Virus record (IMG/VR): IMGVR_UViG_3300042508_000118
Span: 1-29,885 of that record
Source of the DNA: a virus
Length of the DNA stretch: 29,885 bases
Direction: 5' to 3' (one strand)
The translations under genes were made by a program, and so were the position numbers. Below the pieces are notes generated by a model. The model worked only from the letters and a program-made list of their open reading frames with translations. It was not told where the DNA came from and made no database searches. Positions 630 to 27,801 of this stretch are shown here, in pieces; within the stretch, counting starts at the first letter, position 1; the number at the start of each line of letters is the position of its first letter.

Positions 630-790
630 GCCATATCTCCTGTCATGTCGATTTCTGTTTCTTGCAAGGTCTTGGTTGCCAACTTCAAGTCTTGCAAGAG
701 AATCCGCAACTCTCGGCTGTGGACAATCACATAATCATCTTGCTCTGCCAGCTTTTGTAGCAGTTTGTATGCTCTTTCTTTCTCGTTCAT
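626..790 (-). CDS. Small hypothetical protein (54 aa)
   Basis: A short gene from ATG at 790 to TGA at 626-628. The protein starts MNEKERAYKLLQKLAEQDDY and ends TLQETEIDMTGDMA. It is charged, without Cys or a membrane segment, and probably helical. It is supported by context: its ATG overlaps the stop of the upstream P-like gene (ATGA at 787-790), and its stop overlaps the ATG of the downstream winged-helix gene (ATGA at 626-629), so it fills the gap between two genes exactly. Function unknown. Confidence 0.72.
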   Translation of the reverse strand: MNEKERAYKLLQKLAEQDDYVIVHSRELRILLQDLKLATKTLQETEIDMTGDMA

Positions 791-1125
791 AGAACCTCCT
801 TTTGTTGTCTTGACATCATCGCCTTAATCTTAGCGACCTGTTCTAAGCCTTTAGTCTTATCTATCGTCATTTCGAGACGCTGATAAAACGGAGGAGGAGC
901 CTGTCTGCATAGAGCCCTGAATTGCAAAACATTGGGAGGTTTGTCACCAGGCAAGCACTCAACCGCATAAGAGATGGCATGAGGAAGGTTTGCAAAGCCA
1001 GATAACTCGTGAGCCCAGTTCTCCATAACCTCCTGCATATTCATGTCTCGATACTGGTCGAGAAAAGCCTTTCCGTAGGTCATAGAAAGTTTCTTGAAGA
1101 TGGCTTCGATCACTTGCAAGTCCAT
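787..1125 (-). CDS. Putative replication protein, lambda P-like (helicase loader type)
   Basis: A 112-aa protein directly downstream of the DUF1376 gene (2-bp gap), with a strong GGAGG site 7 bases before the ATG. The central segment, residues about 35-75, reads WAHELSGFANLPHAISYAVE followed by LPGDKPPNVLQFRALCRQAP. This pattern (W-A-x2-L, then PPxxxxFxxLCR) is what I associate with the lambda P/replication protein P family and its shorter phage relatives, which bring the host replicative helicase to the initiator-origin complex. The protein is about half the length of lambda P, so it would be a minimal form. The O-P-like order supports the call. The family link rests on motif memory, not a search. 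Confidence 0.5.
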   Translation of the reverse strand: MDLQVIEAIFKKLSMTYGKAFLDQYRDMNMQEVMENWAHELSGFANLPHAISYAVECLPGDKPPNVLQFRALCRQAPPPFYQRLEMTIDKTKGLEQVAKIKAMMSRQQKEVL

Positions 1126-1127
1126 GA

Positions 1128-1877
1128 TTAGCCCTCCAACAAGTCTTGACGAGGCGTGATGTCCTTCTCGCGCCTGTTTCTGCCGAAGATGATGTCCAAA
1201 GACTGCTTGTAATGGTCATCCTTCTTGAGATCGTCTGTAACCCACTCAGCCTTAAATCCCTGCCAGCCTCTAGCGCAGCAAAGCTGCAAAGCCTTTTCAA
1301 GCGATATGCCTGCGTTAGAAGCCTCTTTCCTGATCCCTTTTATGGCTGTGTCAGTGATAGGCGATTTCTTAGCCTTCCTGAGAGCTTTGAAGTCAGCCCA
1401 AACAGATTCATCAACATCATCAGGACGAAGCGAGCTTGCCGAGCGTGTATTTATAGTTGGTTGTTGGTTATTGGTTATTGGTTGTTGGTTATTGGTTGGT
1501 TGCTCGGTCGTTGAACGCTCGTTGAACGGCTGTTGAACGCCCGTTGAACGCTTGTTCATCGCTCGTTTAGCGGCCGATGCTTTTCCAGCCTTAGAAGCAG
1601 ACTCTAGCTGCTGATGATAGTGTCCTATCTCTCTATCGCATCGCTTGTGATGCCAGCTTCCTTCTTCAAGCGTGAAGAACATATTTAGAAGCCCTGAGAT
1701 CACCTGCTCTTTATCTCGCCCATTGACTTTCATGGAAAGCTCAAACAACGAGTCTGGCAAAGGTTTTTCTGTGTCGTAGTAAAGCCAGAGCAGCTTCATG
1801 TAAATCCCAACCTCTTCGTTGGTCAGGAATGAAGTGTCTTTTATGAAGTCACCGATATGGTGTTGGTAGTAGTGCAT
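1128..1877 (-). CDS. DUF1376 replication initiator-like protein (lambda O-like position)
   Basis: A 249-aa protein if started at the ATG at 1877. The N-terminal 85 residues (MHYYQHHIGDFIKDTSFLTN, then EEVGIYMKLLWLYY) match the DUF1376 domain, found in phage and prophage replication proteins and related to the DnaD/O-type winged helix. The middle (residues about 100-150) is a low-complexity Gln/Asn/Thr/Ser linker coded by DNA with striking repeats (see 1459-1572). The C-terminal part, from about residue 152 (DDVDESVWADFKALRKAKKS), resembles a second small helical domain. The same frame extends upstream to a GTG at 1940 that follows a GGGGGGAAAA stretch; I prefer 1877 because DUF1376 proteins usually begin at this Met and GGGG lies 5 bases upstream. 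Probable role: binds the origin and starts phage replication. Confidence 0.72.
   Translation of the reverse strand: MHYYQHHIGDFIKDTSFLTNEEVGIYMKLLWLYYDTEKPLPDSLFELSMKVNGRDKEQVISGLLNMFFTLEEGSWHHKRCDREIGHYHQQLESASKAGKASAAKRAMNKRSTGVQQPFNERSTTEQPTNNQQPITNNQQPTINTRSASSLRPDDVDESVWADFKALRKAKKSPITDTAIKGIRKEASNAGISLEKALQLCCARGWQGFKAEWVTDDLKKDDHYKQSLDIIFGRNRREKDITPRQDLLEG
1459..1500. repeat. 7-bp tandem repeat GGTTRTT, six units
   Basis: On the plus strand, six contiguous heptamers start at 1459, 1466, 1473, 1480, 1487 and 1494: GGTTGTT, GGTTATT, GGTTATT, GGTTGTT, GGTTATT, GGTTGGT. The array lies within the DUF1376 gene (linker NNQQP/TNNQQP on the minus strand) and touches the 11-bp repeat array. It is a strand-biased G/T run, a candidate unwinding or protein-loading element next to the iterons. 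Confidence 0.85.
1499..1572. other. Candidate replication origin: iteron-like 8-bp repeats at 11-bp period
   Basis: Plus-strand GTTGAACG occurs four times exactly, at 1510, 1521, 1532 and 1543, each separated by three variable bases. The same register continues with degenerate copies at 1499 (GTTGCTCG), 1554 (GTTCATCG) and 1565 (GTTTAGCG): seven units at an exact 11-bp spacing, about one helical turn. Eleven is not a multiple of three, so the repeats fall in different reading frames and are not explained by a repeated peptide of the same period. By analogy with lambda, where the O-binding iterons lie inside gene O, I infer that this is the phage origin bound by the DUF1376 protein. Confidence 0.65.
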
Positions 1878-2679: not shown

Positions 2680-2743
2680 CTGGGCACTATGCGCGCTATT
2701 GGGGATTTGCTACGGAACACTGCTCTTCCTGTTCATAAAGTAA
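2612..2743 (+). CDS. Small membrane protein (43 aa) overlapping its neighbour
   Basis: I chose the internal ATG at 2612 because GAGAGGG lies 6-7 bases upstream; a longer frame from 2552 lacks such a site. The product has a polar Asn-rich N-terminus (MTTNNSWNNRNLNLTKYKPT), then RSD and a single hydrophobic segment WALCALLGICYGTLLFLFIK at the extreme C-terminus, so it looks like a tail-anchored or single-pass inner-membrane peptide. The first 68 bases overlap the 2545-2679 gene in a different frame. Function unknown; a role in acting on the host membrane is only a guess. Confidence 0.6.
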   Translation: MTTNNSWNNRNLNLTKYKPTRSDWALCALLGICYGTLLFLFIK

Positions 2744-2754
2744 AGGAGCTAAAC

Positions 2755-3285
2755 ATGAAATTCGCTGAGTTAAACAAAATCAACGTCAACAGCAAGATCG
2801 AGAAGAAGAACAACCTCTCGTATCTATCCTGGGCTTGGGCTGTAGAGCAACTTTTGCTCAACGATCCGAGTGCTACGTGGGAGTACAAGCCTCACCAAAT
2901 GTGGAACGAGACGGTCATGGTGTTCTGCGAGGTAAAGGCTTTCGGAGTTTCTCGCACTGCCCAACTTCCGGTCATGGACCACAGAAACAAGGCCATATCC
3001 AACCCAGATTCCTTCCAGGTCAATACCGCTATGCAGCGATGCTTGGCTAAGGCTATCGCGTTGCATGGTCTCGGTTTATATATTTATGCGGGAGAGGATC
3101 TGCCTTCCGAAGAAAAGGTCGATGAGCTTGAGGCCTACAAGGCAAAACTCGAATCGGCAGAGTCATTAGACGCGTTAAAAGCAGAGTTCTCTCCGGCTTA
3201 TAAAGCTATGAAGGACAAGCCAGAGATCAAAGAACTCGTTGCAGTTTACGAAGCCAAGAAGAAAGCACTCACGGAAGTCAAATGA
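2755..3285 (+). CDS. Single-strand annealing protein, DUF1071/Sak-type recombinase
   Basis: A 176-aa protein started at 2755, where AAGGAG-CTAAAC gives an excellent ribosome-binding site; a longer frame from 2689 would overlap the previous gene and lacks such a site. Residues about 20-30 read NNLSYLSWAWAVEQLL, and residues 85-120 include SFQVNTAMQRCLAKAIALHG, then LGLYIYAGEDLP. These are the signature blocks of DUF1071, which belongs to the Rad52-like phage annealing proteins (Sak/Sak3 group). It should coat and anneal single-stranded DNA made by the exonuclease encoded at 4284, a two-component recombination system like lambda Red. The C-terminal 50 residues are a charged helical region. Confidence 0.75.
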   Translation: MKFAELNKINVNSKIEKKNNLSYLSWAWAVEQLLLNDPSATWEYKPHQMWNETVMVFCEVKAFGVSRTAQLPVMDHRNKAISNPDSFQVNTAMQRCLAKAIALHGLGLYIYAGEDLPSEEKVDELEAYKAKLESAESLDALKAEFSPAYKAMKDKPEIKELVAVYEAKKKALTEVK

Positions 3286-3635
3286 ACCTAGACCGCTTTG
3301 AAGAAGGCTTGATCGACGACATCCAGACTGACCGCTGCAAGAAACTCTTGTGGTCGGTCATCAATTTAGCAGTTGAAGATGCTTGCAGGGCTCCGCATGC
3401 AAAAAAGCCAAGTACCGAGTCAATCACCGCGATGAGGTTCCTGGTCGGGAATGGCAAGGAAGCAGACGTTGATTCTTGGCTTATGTGGTTAGACGTAAAC
3501 GGTCCGGTGTTCAGAAGGAGACTCTTGGAGGCTATGTACGACGATCACACAAACAAGTTCCAGGACATGGCAAAAAGAGCGTTTAGGTTCAACTACAACT
3601 GGTGGAGACAAAATGCGACTGATTTTAACGACTGA
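3282..3635 (+). CDS. Conserved phage hypothetical protein (117 aa)
   Basis: The start overlaps the stop of the annealing-protein gene (ATGA at 3282-3285), and the 3' end overlaps NinB by 23 bases. The protein has a helical N-terminus (CKKLLWSVINLAVEDACR), then STESITAMRFLVGNG and DVDSWLMWLDVNGPVFRRRL, ending with Trp/Asn-rich FRFNYNWWRQNATDFND. The block A-x-RFL...W-L-x-W-L-D...R-x2-LL is common to a family of small phage proteins with no assigned function, found near replication and recombination genes. It is probably cytoplasmic and all-helical, and by context an early accessory protein of DNA metabolism. Confidence 0.7.
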   Translation: MNLDRFEEGLIDDIQTDRCKKLLWSVINLAVEDACRAPHAKKPSTESITAMRFLVGNGKEADVDSWLMWLDVNGPVFRRRLLEAMYDDHTNKFQDMAKRAFRFNYNWWRQNATDFND

Positions 3636-4032
3636 AAATGACCGTAGGAGGGCTGTAGAGGCTCTACAAAGCGCTGAATTGGGTTACATGGTGACTATTA
3701 CCAAACCTCCTCGCACAGCGGCTCAGAATCGGTTTTATTGGGCGATCCTTACTGCGTGTTCTGAGCAACTTATGAACCAGGAATACACACAGGACATCTG
3801 GCACGAGTGGGCTAAGACTCGATTCTTGCCAACAAGGATCGTAGACCTACCTGGAGGCCAGGTGAAGGAGATAGAACCGAGCACCGCTTCTCTCACGATC
3901 TCTGAGTTCTCTGATCTTGTAGAGCAGCTCCTACAGTACGCGTTGGAGAAAGGCTTGATCTGGACTGATGAGATGAAAGACGCTGAACTAGACTTAAGGA
4001 AAATCAATGTACGTCAACAAAAAGCTGCTTGA
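3613..4032 (+). CDS. ninB: NinB-like recombination mediator (lambda Orf family)
   Basis: A 139-aa protein, close to the usual length of lambda NinB/Orf (about 146). Residues 26-48 read MVTITKPPRTAAQNRFYWAI, the typical NinB block (R-x2-x-QN-x2-x-W), and residues 60-75 (DIWHEWAKTRFLPTRI) and 100-115 (LVEQLLQYALEKG) also fit. In lambda, Orf helps load the annealing protein onto SSB-coated single-stranded DNA and can replace RecFOR. The start overlaps the previous gene, with GGAGA just upstream. Position between the annealing protein and the exonuclease supports a recombination role. Confidence 0.78.
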   Translation: MRLILTTENDRRRAVEALQSAELGYMVTITKPPRTAAQNRFYWAILTACSEQLMNQEYTQDIWHEWAKTRFLPTRIVDLPGGQVKEIEPSTASLTISEFSDLVEQLLQYALEKGLIWTDEMKDAELDLRKINVRQQKAA

Positions 4033-4300
4033 GGCTTGCAGGCACATCCCTTGCGGATCGTGTTTTTGCGAAGATGGAACGGTTGTCGCCGCACACAGGA
4101 ACCAAGGAAAAGGCATGGGCATCAAGGTATCTGATGCTTTAGTAGCATCCCTGTGCTTTCGTTGTCACACATACTTAGATCAGGGGAAGGATATGTCTCG
4201 TGAAGAACGTCGAGACTTCTGGAACCAGGCTTACATAAACACGATGCAGGCAATGATCGAACGAGGATTTCTAAAGGTGCAAAATGGAACAAAGAACTGA
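4007..4300 (+). CDS. DUF1364-like Cys/His zinc protein, possible HNH-type nuclease
   Basis: A 97-aa protein with CRHIPCGSCFC at residues 11-21, AAHRNQGKGMGIKVSDAL at 28-45, and LCFRCHTYLDQG at 49-60. The Cys pairs (16/19 and 50/53) with His30 and His54 fit a zinc-binding His-Me/HNH-like fold, and the H...GMG(I/M)K...C-x2-CH order matches DUF1364, a lambdoid nin-region family. A nuclease role in processing recombination intermediates is suggested by family and context, not shown. AAGGA lies 6-7 bases before the ATG. It overlaps NinB by 26 bases and the exonuclease by 17. Confidence 0.7.
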   Translation: MYVNKKLLEACRHIPCGSCFCEDGTVVAAHRNQGKGMGIKVSDALVASLCFRCHTYLDQGKDMSREERRDFWNQAYINTMQAMIERGFLKVQNGTKN

Positions 4301-4880
4301 AGATTGGTACAAAGCAAGACTAGGCCACGTAACGGCTTCTAGGGCTTCAGACGCGATTGCAAAGCAAGGTACGGCTACGCGTAGGAACTACGCAATCCAG
4401 CTCGTCACAGAGCGCTTAACGGGCTTACATAGCGATTCCTTCACGAACGCTGCTATGCAGTGGGGTACAGAACAAGAACCTATCGCTAGGGTCGCTTATG
4501 AGCAGGCTACAGGCTCGATTGTGGAGCAGACAGGCTTTCACAAGCATAAGAGCATAGAATGGCTTGGAGCCTCTCCTGATGGGTTTGTAGGCTCAGGTCT
4601 GATCGAGATCAAGTGTCCTAACAGCAACACTCACGTTGATTATTTACTCGCAAAGGAGGTTCCCACTAAGTACAAAAGCCAAATGCTCACTCAAATGCTC
4701 GTGACAAACAAGACATGGTGCGACTTTGTTAGCTTCGACCCAAGGCTTCCCGATCACTTGCAGTTATTCATTGTTAGATACGAGCCAAAGCCAGAGGAGT
4801 TCAAGATCATTGAGCTACAACTCACGAACTTTCTAGCCGAGGTGAACGAAATGGAGAAATCGCTATGCCAAAAGAACTAA
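4284..4880 (+). CDS. YqaJ/lambda-type alkaline exonuclease
   Basis: A 198-aa 5'-3' double-strand DNA exonuclease of the YqaJ/lambda exo family (PD-(D/E)XK fold). Visible motifs: RTEDWYKARLGHVTASRASD at the N-terminus (W-x3-R-x-G-x-(V/I)-T-A-S), WGTEQEP at 60-66, SPDG with Asp99, and IEIKCP with Glu108 and Lys110, followed by KSQMLTQMLV at 131-140. All catalytic residues expected of the family are present, and the length is near the usual 200-230. It would degrade one strand to provide tails for the annealing protein at 2755. AAGGTG precedes the ATG at 4284. Confidence 0.9.
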   Translation: MEQRTEDWYKARLGHVTASRASDAIAKQGTATRRNYAIQLVTERLTGLHSDSFTNAAMQWGTEQEPIARVAYEQATGSIVEQTGFHKHKSIEWLGASPDGFVGSGLIEIKCPNSNTHVDYLLAKEVPTKYKSQMLTQMLVTNKTWCDFVSFDPRLPDHLQLFIVRYEPKPEEFKIIELQLTNFLAEVNEMEKSLCQKN

Positions 4881-12302: not shown

Positions 12303-15137
12303 TTACCCCAAAACCATCCACGATTGACCATCTGGAACCGTCACAGCATAACCTGCCGCGACCGTGACAGGACTGACAGACAGTCCGTTTGTGTTGCTCG
12401 TAAGTGTGACATTGCTTGAAATCAAGATTTGCGATTCTAGGATTGGCCCACCTGCACCGCCACCTGTAGCTGTCAATTGGCCTGCCGACAAACTAAGGCC
12501 AGAACCTACCGTGACGTTACTAAACCCGCCCGTACCGTTGTTAGCTAAAAGCTCTGTATTCGCACCCGTAGGGGCAGGAGCAGCACCTAACGTATTGTAG
12601 GAAAGCGTGACTGCTGTAGAACCGTTAAATGTCGTTCCTGACGCTGCACCAGAACCAGAGTTATTAAGCGTTAGTGCATTGGTTGTTGTGCCACTTCCTC
12701 CGGTCACATCTAACGTGCCAGCAGAGAACGATAGCCCCGTTCCTACCGTGACATTAGAAAAGCCACCAGACCCGTTTCCATACAAGATTGACGTACCACT
12801 AGTAGCCGGAGCGTAATCCGTACCTGATGTGGCTGTCGTAAAGCCTGAGCCATTGCCCTTGAGGATACCGTTAAGACTTGTTGTAACCGCAAGCGTTCCA
12901 GAACTCGTTACCGGAGAGTTGGAAACCGTAAAGCCAGAAGGCATGGTGAGGCCAACTGAAGTAACTGTCCCAGAGCCACTTCCTGCCGATGCCCATACAA
13001 ACGCTGAACCATTCCACTGTAAATAAGTAGATGATGTCGTAGGAGCATCTATAAACGATGTCGCACCTACACCCGTCTGGTACACAATCTTGTTAGCAGA
13101 ACCTCCAGATACATTCTGTGCGCCTGTTGCCGTTGTTGCAGAGGCTGCACTTCCAGTAATTGATATGGACCAGGTTCCGCTAGCGTTAGTACCCGTTGTG
13201 GATGGAGCGCCAATCGTGTTGTAACTAATGGTTCGCGCTACCGATCCATCGAAGGTTGTTCCTGAAGCAGCACCGGAGCCTGAGTTGTTGAAGGTTGCAG
13301 CATTGGTAGTCGTTCCACCACCACCAGACGCAGCAGCCCAAACAAACCCTGTTCCATTCCAAGAGAGGTAAGTCGAGCTAACCGTTGGTCCTGCAATAAA
13401 GCTCGTGGTTCCTGAGCTTGTTTGGTAAGGGATCTGGTTAGGACCGCCGCTAGCAAGGTTTGTCGAGGTTGTCGCAGAAGTCGCAGACGTTGCACTTGTC
13501 GCCGTTGCTGCGTTGATATTCCAGTTACCTGTCGCGCCTGTACCTGTGATCGGCACATAGTCCGTACCAGCAGTTGCATTTGCAAAGCCACCAGAACCGT
13601 TAGCCTTTAAGATCGAGGTTCCTGTTGTCGCAGGAGCGTAGTCAATCCCAGACGATGCAGTAGAAAAGCCACCTGCGTTGTCGCCTTTTAGGATGCCTGT
13701 GCCTGACGTTGGTGGAGCGAAGTCAGTACCAGACACTGCCGCAGAGATAACGCCGCTAGCAGCCTTCAGAACGCCCGTAGTGCCTGCTGCTTTAACCAAC
13801 TTGCCCGTACTACCATCAAACAAAACGATTTGATTGGCGGTCGCTCCAGACGGTCCTACAACGTCACCTGTTCCTGCTGGAGTCGCCCAGGTTAGTGCGG
13901 TCCCATTCCAGGATAAGTAAGTTCCTGACGAGGATGGAGCGGTTACAAAGCCTGTTGTATTAGATGCAGTCTGTACCGCAAGACGATTGGCAGCGCCGCC
14001 TGCAAGATTGGTTGCGGTTGTTGCCGATGTTGCACTTGTCGCACTATTGGCAGAACCAAGAATGTCGATGTTCCAGGTTCCAGTAGCGCCAGAACCCGTG
14101 TTAGAAGGAACGCCTAAATTGGTGCGAGCATCACTTGCCGTAGAAGCGCCTGTGCCACCGTCTGCAACGGCCAGGTCTGTAATCCCTGTGATCGAGCCAC
14201 CAGAGATAGAAACCGAGTTAGCCGCTTGTGTAGCGATAGACCCAAGACCGAGGTTCGTTCTTGCGGTTGATGCCGACGATAGGTCAGAGAGATTATTGGC
14301 CCTGTAAGCGTAGGTCGTGTCCTGGCCTGTCGCGGTTACACCTAAGTTAGTGCGAGCATCCAGCGCAGAAGAAGCTCCGGTCCCACCGTCTGCCACGGCA
14401 AGATCGGTAATTCCTGTAATCGAGCCGCCAGTAATAGATACGCTAGCAGCGGACTGTGTGGCAATCGTGCCTAAGCCTAAATTCGTGCGAGCAGTCGATG
14501 CCGAGGAGAGATCAGAGAGGTTATTGGACCTAAAGGCATAGGTTGTATCTTGGCCTGTCTCGGTGACACCCAAATTGGTTCGTGCGGTTGCGGCATCCGT
14601 TGCACCTGTACCACCGCGAGCGACTGTCAGGGTTCCTGTCGTTCCCGCGATAATAGGAAGGCCAGTACCGTTAGTTAAGGTTACCGCAGAAGGTGTACCG
14701 AGATCAGGAGTCGTTAGTGTTGGAGATGTTGCGCGAACAACATTGCCTGTGCCCGTAACGGACGAGAAAGAAAGGTTTCCGGACCCGTCTGTGCCTAGTA
14801 GGGTATTGGCAGCACCATCAGCAGAGGGAAGTACAAAGGTTGTGTTGGTGGAGATAGAGGCGGCAGCGCGTAATTCAACGTAGTTAGAACCGTTGTCTGC
14901 ATCCTCTCCGAGACGAACGCGACCTGCGTTAGCCGTTACACCCTGAACCGTTAAGACATCAGAAGAGGTAAACGAGTCGCCATCTAAGCCTGCCTGTTGA
15001 TTCTTGAGCTGCGACATAAGCTCACGAATCGCGTTGTTGATGTTACTAGGAGCGCAGCCCTCAGCAATATCGATGCCATCAATATCGGTGTTGTTGCCTG
15101 GAGTTGAGGAGAACTCGGAAATCTTTGTCTTTGCCAT
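12303..15137 (-). CDS. Long tail fibre protein with repeated units (944 aa)
   Basis: A Gly/Ser/Thr/Ala-rich fibre. The N-terminus MAKTKISEFSSTPGNNTDID, followed by GIDIAEGCAPSNINNAIREL MSQL, is a common virion-attachment start for podoviral fibres. It is then built from repeats: ARTNLGV/ARTNLGLG units (residues about 170-345), YLSWNGT-type units (about 410, 610 and 710), and GTSILKANGSGGF/GNGSGGFSNV units. Such repeats form slender trimeric beta rods. The C-terminus (SVSPVTVAAGYAVTVPDGQS WMVLG) is a short beta cap also seen in other fibres. GGAGTAATC precedes the ATG. No depolymerase motif is visible. Confidence 0.82.
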   Translation of the reverse strand: MAKTKISEFSSTPGNNTDIDGIDIAEGCAPSNINNAIRELMSQLKNQQAGLDGDSFTSSDVLTVQGVTANAGRVRLGEDADNGSNYVELRAAASISTNTTFVLPSADGAANTLLGTDGSGNLSFSSVTGTGNVVRATSPTLTTPDLGTPSAVTLTNGTGLPIIAGTTGTLTVARGGTGATDAATARTNLGVTETGQDTTYAFRSNNLSDLSSASTARTNLGLGTIATQSAASVSITGGSITGITDLAVADGGTGASSALDARTNLGVTATGQDTTYAYRANNLSDLSSASTARTNLGLGSIATQAANSVSISGGSITGITDLAVADGGTGASTASDARTNLGVPSNTGSGATGTWNIDILGSANSATSATSATTATNLAGGAANRLAVQTASNTTGFVTAPSSSGTYLSWNGTALTWATPAGTGDVVGPSGATANQIVLFDGSTGKLVKAAGTTGVLKAASGVISAAVSGTDFAPPTSGTGILKGDNAGGFSTASSGIDYAPATTGTSILKANGSGGFANATAGTDYVPITGTGATGNWNINAATATSATSATSATTSTNLASGGPNQIPYQTSSGTTSFIAGPTVSSTYLSWNGTGFVWAAASGGGGTTTNAATFNNSGSGAASGTTFDGSVARTISYNTIGAPSTTGTNASGTWSISITGSAASATTATGAQNVSGGSANKIVYQTGVGATSFIDAPTTSSTYLQWNGSAFVWASAGSGSGTVTSVGLTMPSGFTVSNSPVTSSGTLAVTTSLNGILKGNGSGFTTATSGTDYAPATSGTSILYGNGSGGFSNVTVGTGLSFSAGTLDVTGGSGTTTNALTLNNSGSGAASGTTFNGSTAVTLSYNTLGAAPAPTGANTELLANNGTGGFSNVTVGSGLSLSAGQLTATGGGAGGPILESQILISSNVTLTSNTNGLSVSPVTVAAGYAVTVPDGQSWMVLG
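14113..14568 (-). repeat. Two tandem 228-bp units within the fibre gene
   Basis: 14113-14340 and 14341-14568 code almost the same 76-aa block, containing TGQDTTYA(F/Y)R, NNLSDLSSASTARTNLGLG and GGSITGITDLAVADGGTGAS. At DNA level the copies differ at many third codon positions, so the duplication is old and the protein repeat has been kept. Confidence 0.8.
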
Positions 15138-26236: not shown

Positions 26237-27801
26237 AACAGGCTCTTCACTTTCTCTTTAGAAATCCTTGACTCGTTCAAGGCTTCTAGGAAATCTTCGC
26301 CGTACTTGTTGACAGCCTTCTTTCTGATGACAAATTCTCCGTACTGGAGCGCACCAAAACCATCGTCATCGTTACTTGGGTTGGGTCCAAGCAGAGACTT
26401 AACCTTGCCGCCCTTTGCGCTACTTGTTTGCTGCGCTGCATCGTCTGCCGCTTGTTGCGCCTGCTGTGCTGCTTGTTGAGCCAACTGAGCGTCAGTCTTT
26501 GCCCAATCGTAGTTAGCGATAAGGCCTGAGCGGTTAAACGGCCCAGGCTGAAACTGTTGTACCTGAGATACGTTTGCAGGCACACCAAACTCTAGGGTCA
26601 TAGGGCGCAGGTTTGTGTATCCCGCTGCGCCAGATTGAAACTGGAATGGAACTTCAGGTGTTGGTGTTGTCTTGTAAAAGAAACCCGTAGTAGGGGCAGC
26701 AAGGCTTGTCTGTCCGCCGCCCGTAGCAAACGGCACAAAGTTAGTCGCAGGAAGATTGTAGGCAGGCGGCAAAAAATCTTCTGGCCTGAAAGTTGGCGTT
26801 GTTGGCGTTGTTGGTGTCGTTGGTTTTGGTGTTGTTGTCGGTGTTGATCCAAGCCCCAACGTAATCGCGCCCTGTACGTCTGTCTCAGGTACACCCATTG
26901 CTCGCAGCATATCTGCTGTGACTTTGTTCTGGTTGTACCAATCGACCTTTTGTTGACCCGTGAAGGTAGACCAGCCGGAAGGAAGCGTCATACCCGTTGG
27001 AAGTTGCCAAGATGGAGCAGGAGCGGTAGTTGTGCCGAGGCCTAATTGTTTAGCGTAGTCAATATCTGCTTGCGGAACTTTGTAGTCCTTAAGCGTCTGC
27101 TCGGTAATCTTGTTGGCGTTAAACCAGTTAACCTTATCTTGTGCAGTGTAATAAGGCCATTCAGCAGGCAGCCCTAAACCTAACTGCGCTGCCATCAGCG
27201 TTACAGCGTCTTGTGATGCGTTTCTTGGTTGCTCAACGATTGTCGTTGTTGGCGCAGTTACCGTAGGGGTAGGAGTTGGAGTTGGAGTTGGAGTTGGAGT
27301 TGGAGTTGGAGTTGGGGCTGGAATACCAAGCAGATCAAAGTTAGCCTGTGTTGCGTTGGCTGGGTCTAGCTCGGTAATCCTAGCCTTTATTTGATCTGGC
27401 GTAATACCTGCGGAAAGCAATGACTGAATGTATCCCTGCTTCGTCGCAAGGCTCGCACCAGAGTTCCAAGACAAACCAAATACGTTGTAAGTCGGAGCGG
27501 CAGGAGGAGGCGTGTATACGGGTTGTGTATACACGGGCTCTTGATAGACAGGCTCTTGATAGACAGGTTCTTGGTAAACGGGCTCTTGATATACGGGTTC
27601 TGGCTGCGTGTAGACAGGTTCTTGCTGCACAGGCTGCGGAGGGCTGAACCCATTAGACAGCATCCAGGTAATGTCTGACTGTGGAACCCCAGCACCTACA
27701 AGTTCCTCGACAGTCGTTCCTGCCGCATTAAAGGCAGCGATCTTCTGCGAAGGTGTATAGCTGGCCCAGGCTGAGGTATAGACTGCTGATGGAATAGCCA
27801 T
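26233..27801 (-). CDS. Repeat-rich virion-associated protein (522 aa)
   Basis: A 522-aa protein between portal and scaffold. Four related helical units of about 42 aa occur at residues about 12-52, 111-150, 214-256 and 275-317; two read YYTAQDKVNWFNANKITEQT and TFTGQQKVDWYNQNKVTADM. They are separated by PVYQE repeats (residues 61-97) and a (PT)n run (about 161-180). The C-terminus (SKG GKVKSLLGPNPSN, then GFGALQYGEFVIRKKAVNKY) has a (G/D)GEFV(I/M)x2-AVxKYG-type motif seen at the ends of other phage structural proteins. AGGG lies 6 bases before the ATG. Likely a virion protein or assembly factor; no known domain. Confidence 0.65.
   Translation of the reverse strand: MAIPSAVYTSAWASYTPSQKIAAFNAAGTTVEELVGAGVPQSDITWMLSNGFSPPQPVQQEPVYTQPEPVYQEPVYQEPVYQEPVYQEPVYTQPVYTPPPAAPTYNVFGLSWNSGASLATKQGYIQSLLSAGITPDQIKARITELDPANATQANFDLLGIPAPTPTPTPTPTPTPTPTPTVTAPTTTIVEQPRNASQDAVTLMAAQLGLGLPAEWPYYTAQDKVNWFNANKITEQTLKDYKVPQADIDYAKQLGLGTTTAPAPSWQLPTGMTLPSGWSTFTGQQKVDWYNQNKVTADMLRAMGVPETDVQGAITLGLGSTPTTTPKPTTPTTPTTPTFRPEDFLPPAYNLPATNFVPFATGGGQTSLAAPTTGFFYKTTPTPEVPFQFQSGAAGYTNLRPMTLEFGVPANVSQVQQFQPGPFNRSGLIANYDWAKTDAQLAQQAAQQAQQAADDAAQQTSSAKGGKVKSLLGPNPSNDDDGFGALQYGEFVIRKKAVNKYGEDFLEALNESRISKEKVKSLL
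27272..27313. repeat. Perfect hexanucleotide repeat (GGAGTT x7)
   Basis: Seven exact copies of GGAGTT on the plus strand code the Pro-Thr run of the 522-aa protein on the minus strand. Changes by whole units add or remove two residues without a frameshift. Confidence 0.9.
27533..27600. repeat. 15-bp repeats coding PVYQE units
   Basis: About four and a half copies of a 15-bp unit like ACGGGCTCTTGATAG, starting at 27533, 27548, 27563, 27578 and 27593, code EPVYQ repeats of the 522-aa protein. The copies differ at one to four positions. Confidence 0.85.

Follow-up and report, generated by a model that had tools for sequence, protein, structure and literature searches.

What does a short, exactly phased repeat array do when it lies in the middle of a phage gene? 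The question is raised by a 29,885-nucleotide stretch of IMG/VR virus record IMGVR_UViG_3300042508_000118, here called the window, in which GTTGAACG occurs exactly at positions 1510, 1521, 1532, and 1543, at a period of 11 bp, and degenerate units stand in register at 1499, 1554, and 1565. A first-pass annotation had reported these seven units and proposed that they mark an origin, and both the exact and the degenerate positions were recovered here. Because the host gene is on the minus strand, the sense motif on the coding strand is (C)GTTCAAC, and because GTTCAAC and GTTGAAC are mutual reverse complements, the site is the pseudo-palindrome GTTSAAC, present once per 11 bp. The features of the locus are collected in Table 1.

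Table 1. Features of the initiator locus (positions in the window)
Feature	Position	Strand	Basis or remark
DUF1376 replication-initiator gene	about 1128..1877	-	ORF; ATG at 1877, in-frame ATG at 1901 possible
DUF1376 N-domain, predicted winged-helix-like fold	1626..1874	-	Pfam; AlphaFold2 model
Codons of SKAGKASAAKR, putative specificity peptide (AGKxSAxxR)	1563..1595	-	Motif-peptide association; helix in model
Iteron-like array, seven 11-bp units	1499..1572	-	Four exact GTTCAAC (at 1510, 1521, 1532, and 1543 on the + strand), three degenerate
Heptamer tract, six AACCAAT/AACCAAC (coding strand), DNA-unwinding-element-like	1456..1498	-	TRF, 7-lag segment, composition
Helical C-terminal domain (O-like)	1182..1439	-	phrog_678 match; model; tblastn
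Short next gene in operon, P-like by one annotated relative	787..1125	-	BLASTP

In the whole window, GTTSAAC stands four times in a row at 11-bp steps in just one place. In a first-order Markov control (200 sequences of window length), the mean number of GTTSAAC pairs with 11-bp spacing was 0.005, and runs of three units were absent. Synonymous recoding of the gene, repeated 20,000 times, never gave four GTTSAAC sites; therefore, chance was ruled out for the array. Elsewhere in the window, TRF reported two 228-bp tandem copies at 14113-14576 (75% matches), (GGAGTT)7 at 27272-27315, and about five copies of a 15-bp repeat at 27529-27601.

The gene that holds the array matched Pfam DUF1376 (PF07120) at 9e-23, with 80.9 bits against a curated cut-off of 30.1, which agrees with the earlier placement of the array inside a DUF1376 gene. 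Its PHROGs matches were to a primosomal protein and to an O-like replication initiation protein (phrog_678, residues 116-237 of 270). No lambda O-type N-domain was found in it, DUF1376 being the sole Pfam match and the O-like match being confined to residues 116-237. The C-domain is common to initiators with other N-domains, and its tblastn matches were phages annotated with a replication initiation protein or a putative replication protein O. Read in the direction of the gene, the locus comprises the DUF1376 domain, SKAGKASAAKR (the codons of which overlap the first array unit), seven 11-bp units, six heptamers, and the helical, O-like C-domain, which places the array between the two domains of the initiator. 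In an AlphaFold2 model, the N-domain was predicted with high confidence as helices and two strands, and the peptide formed the last part of a long predicted helix (residues 78-111). Alignment of the N-domain with VIA-align gave many winged-helix rows with Z values up to 6.5, which were not family specific, and the N-domain of DnaD (2vn2), at Z 4.7, was tied with many unrelated rows; the best Foldseek row was 9a5c_B (GLPD-DNAD model; E = 0.025). Since Foldseek returned no structure match at E ≤ 0.001 and all VIA-align rows were below Z 7, no structural homology is claimed.

The heptamer tract, which the first-pass annotation did not mention, adjoins the array directly on its downstream side in the direction of the gene. 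Its + strand holds 16 G, 24 T, 3 A, and 0 C, and it is thus strand biased and only moderately AT rich (27/43 A/T). The bias extends to the wider DUF1376 gene set, in which the coding strand of the heptamer tract is 82% A+C versus 55% in the genes. The array precedes the tract in 49 of the 50 DUF1376 genes in which both repeats are clear, a count to be read with the array having more room before the tract than after it. Cumulative GC skew over the window showed no clean turning point at the array.

The operon continues with a short gene that had been called P-like. Its product is 35% identical (40/113; BLASTP, 3e-22) to one annotated replication protein P, from MW202520, and its sole PHROGs match was weak and to a family without an assigned function (phrog_1524, 0.0015), so that the P-like label rests on a single depositor's annotation. 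Among 22 named phage regions that matched the window protein (one record being unannotated), a helicase, loader, P, or ATPase was annotated directly next to the matching gene in 9; the remaining annotated neighbors were hypothetical, except for one "replisome organizer," one endonuclease, and one cell wall hydrolase. Recombination genes (a Sak-type annealing protein, NinB, and a YqaJ-type exonuclease) lie in the opposite direction at 2689-4880 of the window.

This anatomy, together with the covariation described below, very probably identifies the array and the tract as a phage replication origin inside the gene of its own initiator, resembling that of lambda O and built from unusually short, helically phased iterons, and from it we infer binding, dimeric recognition, unwinding, helicase loading, and origin firing as follows. 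The DUF1376 protein, through its winged-helix-like domain and the basic helical segment SKAGKASAAKR, would bind the seven GTTSAAC pseudo-palindromes. At 11 bp these would be successive sites on one face of the DNA, and the bound proteins would stack into an ordered, compact complex. Strain from the stacked complex would open the strand-biased heptamers, (AACCAAT)n, next to it, and the helicase would be recruited jointly by the P-like neighbor and the O-like C-domain.

Alignment across relatives, which had been suggested as a check, showed the repeats persisting while the peptide varied. Among 47 viral loci collected by similarity to the whole window protein, 40 retained two or more exact units spaced by 11 or 22 bp; four of the seven others (L012-L014 and L042) have other linkers, and three (L045-L047) end near or inside the N-domain. 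The array codons vary between VQ and VE and between FN and LN, corresponding to C versus G at the center of the palindrome. A broader DUF1376 gene set was assembled from whole-protein relatives, N-domain searches, and named phages matched by the window protein (226 loci, 221 usable) and reduced to 82 nonredundant clusters at 70% identity, the linker being taken as the 240 nt after the domain. The dominant linker lags were 7, 14, 21, and 28 and 11, 22, and 33. At Z > 3, lag 7 was found in the linkers of 66/82 genes and lag 11 in 44/82, compared to 0/82 and 3/82 in the control N-domain, 1/64 and 0/64 in the control C-part, and 2/79 and 1/79 in other ORFs (one per locus, 79 loci). Linker Stouffer Z values were 65 for lag 7 and 42 for lag 11; weaker rises were seen at lags 6, 12, 23, 24, and 34 (Stouffer Z of 5 to 10), and the N-domain gave 5.1 at lag 11. 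With a protein-preserving null, the Stouffer Z values were 28.5 (lag 7) and 14.9 (lag 11) for the 62 genes without GTTSAAC and 15.2 and 20.2, respectively, for the 20 genes with it. Both periods are a family trait and are constrained beyond the protein.

Five named phages share the C-domain of the window and not its N-domain. Two of these (L439 and L443) have an 11-bp array by eye, one (L440) has a longer C-rich repeat by eye, and in the other two (L441 and L442) no array was visible by eye. In the two array-bearing phages, Limnohabitans phage DC33 and MW202640, GATATC occurs three times at 11 bp and is followed by GAGACA repeats. The taxonomy line of the DC33 record (L439, PQ492659) reads Inoviridae for a 39-kb genome, a label that is probably wrong. 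In Vibrio phage 1.183.O, a "CRISPR spacer" is annotated at 2870-2899 of L430, inside the DUF1376 gene near its repeat-bearing linker, and looks like a mis-call of the array repeats; a "CRISPR spacer" is also annotated at 1306-1325 of L476 (1.184.A), in a gene other than DUF1376.

The 82 genes do not all carry the same site. Other subfamilies have GCAATGCGAAC, AACCCA..GGTT, or TGCCGACGGCA at 11 bp or about two turns, and 25/82 genes, including a subgroup with an arginine-rich linker, belong to no motif class of the four. Which motif a gene carries goes with a short basic segment directly after the DUF1376 domain. GTTSAAC (class A) was present in 17/20 genes with AGKxSAxxR and in 0/62 others, AACCCA (AACCCA/TGGGTT; class C) in 20/23 genes with GGR[PKN] and in 0/59 others, GCAATGCG (class B) in 16/22 genes with SAxxRW and in 1/60 others, and TGCCGACGGCA in 3/3 genes with QRE..LKRY. 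One gene (L424) has the class B motif and no match to the peptide regular expression, reading NAESRW. Fisher values for the association were 7e-15, 3e-11, and 3e-16, which are optimistic because the peptide and motif classes were defined post hoc on the same 82 genes. For the 56 genes classified for both, the peptide and motif classes agreed in all 1540 pairs, including 67 pairs with differing motifs and N-domains that are 60-77% identical; the window and L325, for example, have N-domains that are 74% identical and differ in both peptide and array. Overall identity of the DUF1376 domain was also considered as the sole predictor of the motif and was ruled out by these 67 pairs.

A held-out set comprised 36 loci, of which 5 were lost to the HMM and 31 were scored. 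Of the held-out genes with AGKxSAxxR, three had class A and three had no motif; for SAxxRW, the numbers were two with class B and one without a motif, and for GGRP, four with class C and two without. All 16 held-out genes without a peptide also lacked a motif. Thus, the held-out genes classified for both agreed in 9/9 cases, 7 of which were not close to the first set; L447, L476, and L478 were within 70% identity of a first-set gene. Lag 7 was found in 10/31 and lag 11 in 13/31 of these loci, or in 9/30 and 12/30 without L452, whose linker is a run of N that makes its Z values meaningless and inflates the held-out Stouffer values. Two further loci may extend the series: L450 has the variant peptide AGKASVQAR and a variant array, GTTCCAAC, at 11 bp (lag-11 Z of 12.0), possibly a further letter of the code, and L339, from the Lin1244_N search, has the peptide VANEVRW and three units of TCCGA at 11 bp by eye, possibly a further class.

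Together, these results favor, with a fair margin of doubt, the view that DUF1376 and Lin1244_N initiators carry a portable cassette in which a short basic peptide reads a matching phased array, usually encoded directly downstream by the same gene (AGKxSAxxR for GTTSAAC, GGRP for AACCCA/TGGGTT, SAxxRW for GCAATGCG, and QRE..LKRY for TGCCGACGGCA). One crossover would then move the origin and its reader together, and origin specificity in many phages could therefore be predicted from about ten residues. The covariation could be mimicked by physical linkage of the peptide codons and the array, against which arrays outside the reading frame argue, although these number only four loci.

A search of IMG/VR found four GTTSAAC units at 11 bp in 113 stretches versus 2 stretches at 10 bp. 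The reversed core gave 3 stretches at 11 bp, and a 12-bp control gave 49, which may be in-frame peptide repeats because 12 is a multiple of 3. The 113 stretches yielded 109 examined loci, 108 of them with an ORF over the array, in 57 clusters. At E ≤ 0.001, 33 of the 57 clusters matched DUF1376 and 11 matched Lin1244_N; a primosomal-protein PHROG was matched by 40. The peptide, under a looser regular expression, was present within the 70 residues upstream of the array in 45/57 clusters, and the same expression matched anywhere in 28/1096 other ORFs. Twelve clusters missed the peptide (L054, L060, L065, L074, L075, L079, L092, L099, L136, L148, L149, and L159). The misses of L074 and L148 look like anchor failure or truncated sequence, L075 has lost part of the peptide, and in L099, L136, L159, and (partially) L079 the peptide is in a neighboring or broken DUF1376/Lin1244_N gene. 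No peptide-bearing ORF was found within 1.5 kb of the arrays of L065, L092, and L149, which are one phage group, or of L060, whose array is at the contig end. The GTTSAAC arrays of that group (L065, 4150-4250; L092, 3966-4060; L149, 11705-11820) are flanked by heptamers, (TAATGGG)n, and that of L065 is about 800 bp from a terminase large-subunit gene; these arrays might mark a displaced or additional origin.

The array of L099 occupies an intergenic stretch about 370 bp ahead of a Lin1244_N gene whose peptide reads AGKKSAEAR, and the gene after that one encodes a DnaC-like helicase loader. In L159, about 260 bp separate the array from the DUF1376 gene downstream of it, which has AGKASAEAR; L079 has a layout like that of L159, its peptide being cut by the contig edge. 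The array of L233 comes immediately after the end of a Lin1244_N gene whose peptide is AGRVSAAKR. The arrays of these four loci encode no part of the initiator, and their position beside initiator genes argues for a DNA site. In L136, the DUF1376 frame is cut short by a stop codon within the array, yet array and heptamers are both in place. When Lin1244_N loci were chosen by family, 1/12 had AGKxSAxxR (L336, the same gene as in L233), in a locus with five GTTSAAC sites; the other 11, for which a simple ORF pick was used, had neither peptide nor array and held 0 to 2 single GTTSAAC sites.

A DNA site might also serve as an operator, through which the DUF1376 protein would control its own operon instead of starting replication. 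Binding of this kind would be expected to leave the same covariation, and the upstream arrays of L099, L159, and L079 are at operator-compatible places. However, in the window and the classified genes the array is mid-gene, between the domains of an initiator and before a heptamer tract (49 of 50), the initiator ends in an O-like domain, and its annotated neighbor is a replication gene in 9 of the 22 named phage regions, all of which makes an operator unlikely.

We consider it more unlikely still that the array codes for a repetitive peptide linker (NERSTxVQxxFN, NNQQPITNNQQP), disordered and drifting by slippage, with the DNA repeats as a by-product. In keeping with such a linker, residues 112-146 were modeled with low confidence and without secondary structure, and the arrays of L317, L323, and L329 are shorter, by eye, by about one 33-bp (11-amino-acid) step. 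Tandem copies also occur outside initiators in cellular genomes: a collection of 84,980 species gave 35 stretches with an 11-bp array, of which, by eye, a few were in initiator-like ORFs (e.g., L217, L244, and L245) and many were long tandem repeats or noncoding. Ordinary tandem repetition can thus give rise to array-like sequence, which is by itself no proof of an origin. Two of the cellular stretches, L236 (1208-1335) and L219 (148-352), have long GTTSAAC tandem arrays of 12 or so units and more; no ORF with AGKxSAxxR was found within 1.5 kb in L236, and the L219 stretch is too short to tell. Against the linker, neither 7 nor 11 is a multiple of 3, the synonymous null fails to reproduce these periods, GTT..AAC stays constant while the amino acids vary, and arrays occur out of frame beside matching initiators. 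The first-pass annotation had likewise argued that a repeated peptide explains the repeats poorly, a point strengthened here by the protein-preserving and synonymous nulls.

Least probable of the three is a conserved recombination junction for swapping initiator N- and C-domains, as L014, which from the tract onward shares 97.0% identity with the window gene across 369 nt and differs in N-domain and array, might suggest; a junction requires shared sequence, yet the array differs between the partners, and helical phasing and peptide covariation would be left unexplained, although such a role may be a side benefit of the array.

A replication origin within the initiator gene is thus the reading that we prefer, and the first-pass annotation was right in substance, having overlooked the heptamer tract, the subfamily-specific motifs, and the covarying peptide. 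If it is true, a function would be found for a domain of unknown function present in many phages and prophages, and predicted replication origins could be placed in many uncharacterized phage genomes. The peptide-to-DNA code would be testable by a single peptide swap, and it would explain how mosaic phages swap replication specificity with the match between initiator and origin intact. Intragenic origins as such are familiar; what is new is the proposed peptide-array code. No description of such arrays was found in literature searches on DUF1376, on Lin1244/DUF4373, and on 11-bp phage origin repeats, which does not imply their absence from print.

Several known systems offer comparisons. In iteron plasmid origins (R6K, P1, and RK2), a winged-helix initiator binds direct repeats that adjoin an AT-rich element, but those iterons are 17 to 22 bp long and usually lie outside the rep gene, whereas the window array is short and intragenic. 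AP-1/GCN4-type sites (TGASTCA) are odd pseudo-palindromes with a central S that are read by basic helices; the layout of GTTSAAC is similar, and its putative reader would be the end of a basic helix, an analogy for which no homology is claimed. Lambda iterons are about 18 bp long at roughly two-turn spacing. The window units, at 11 bp with a 7-bp pseudo-palindromic core, are shorter, and the tract next to them consists of heptamers biased in A/C versus G/T. The N-domain also differs, being DUF1376 and not that of lambda O, and the motif tracks a peptide outside the globular domain. The repeats of SPP1 are likewise of a different type. The likeness lies in the arrangement. In the ori of lambda and its Stx-phage relatives (PMC7466680), iterons and an AT-rich tract lie in the middle of gene O, with P in the same region; in the window, the repeats similarly lie mid-initiator gene beside a tract, with the P-like gene next. 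In SPP1 (PMC6316719), oriL has direct repeats and an unwinding element within the initiator gene, gene 38 (gp38), with gp39 as the helicase loader, and the phage has a second origin, oriR; the direct repeats and putative unwinding tract inside the initiator gene of the window resemble oriL.
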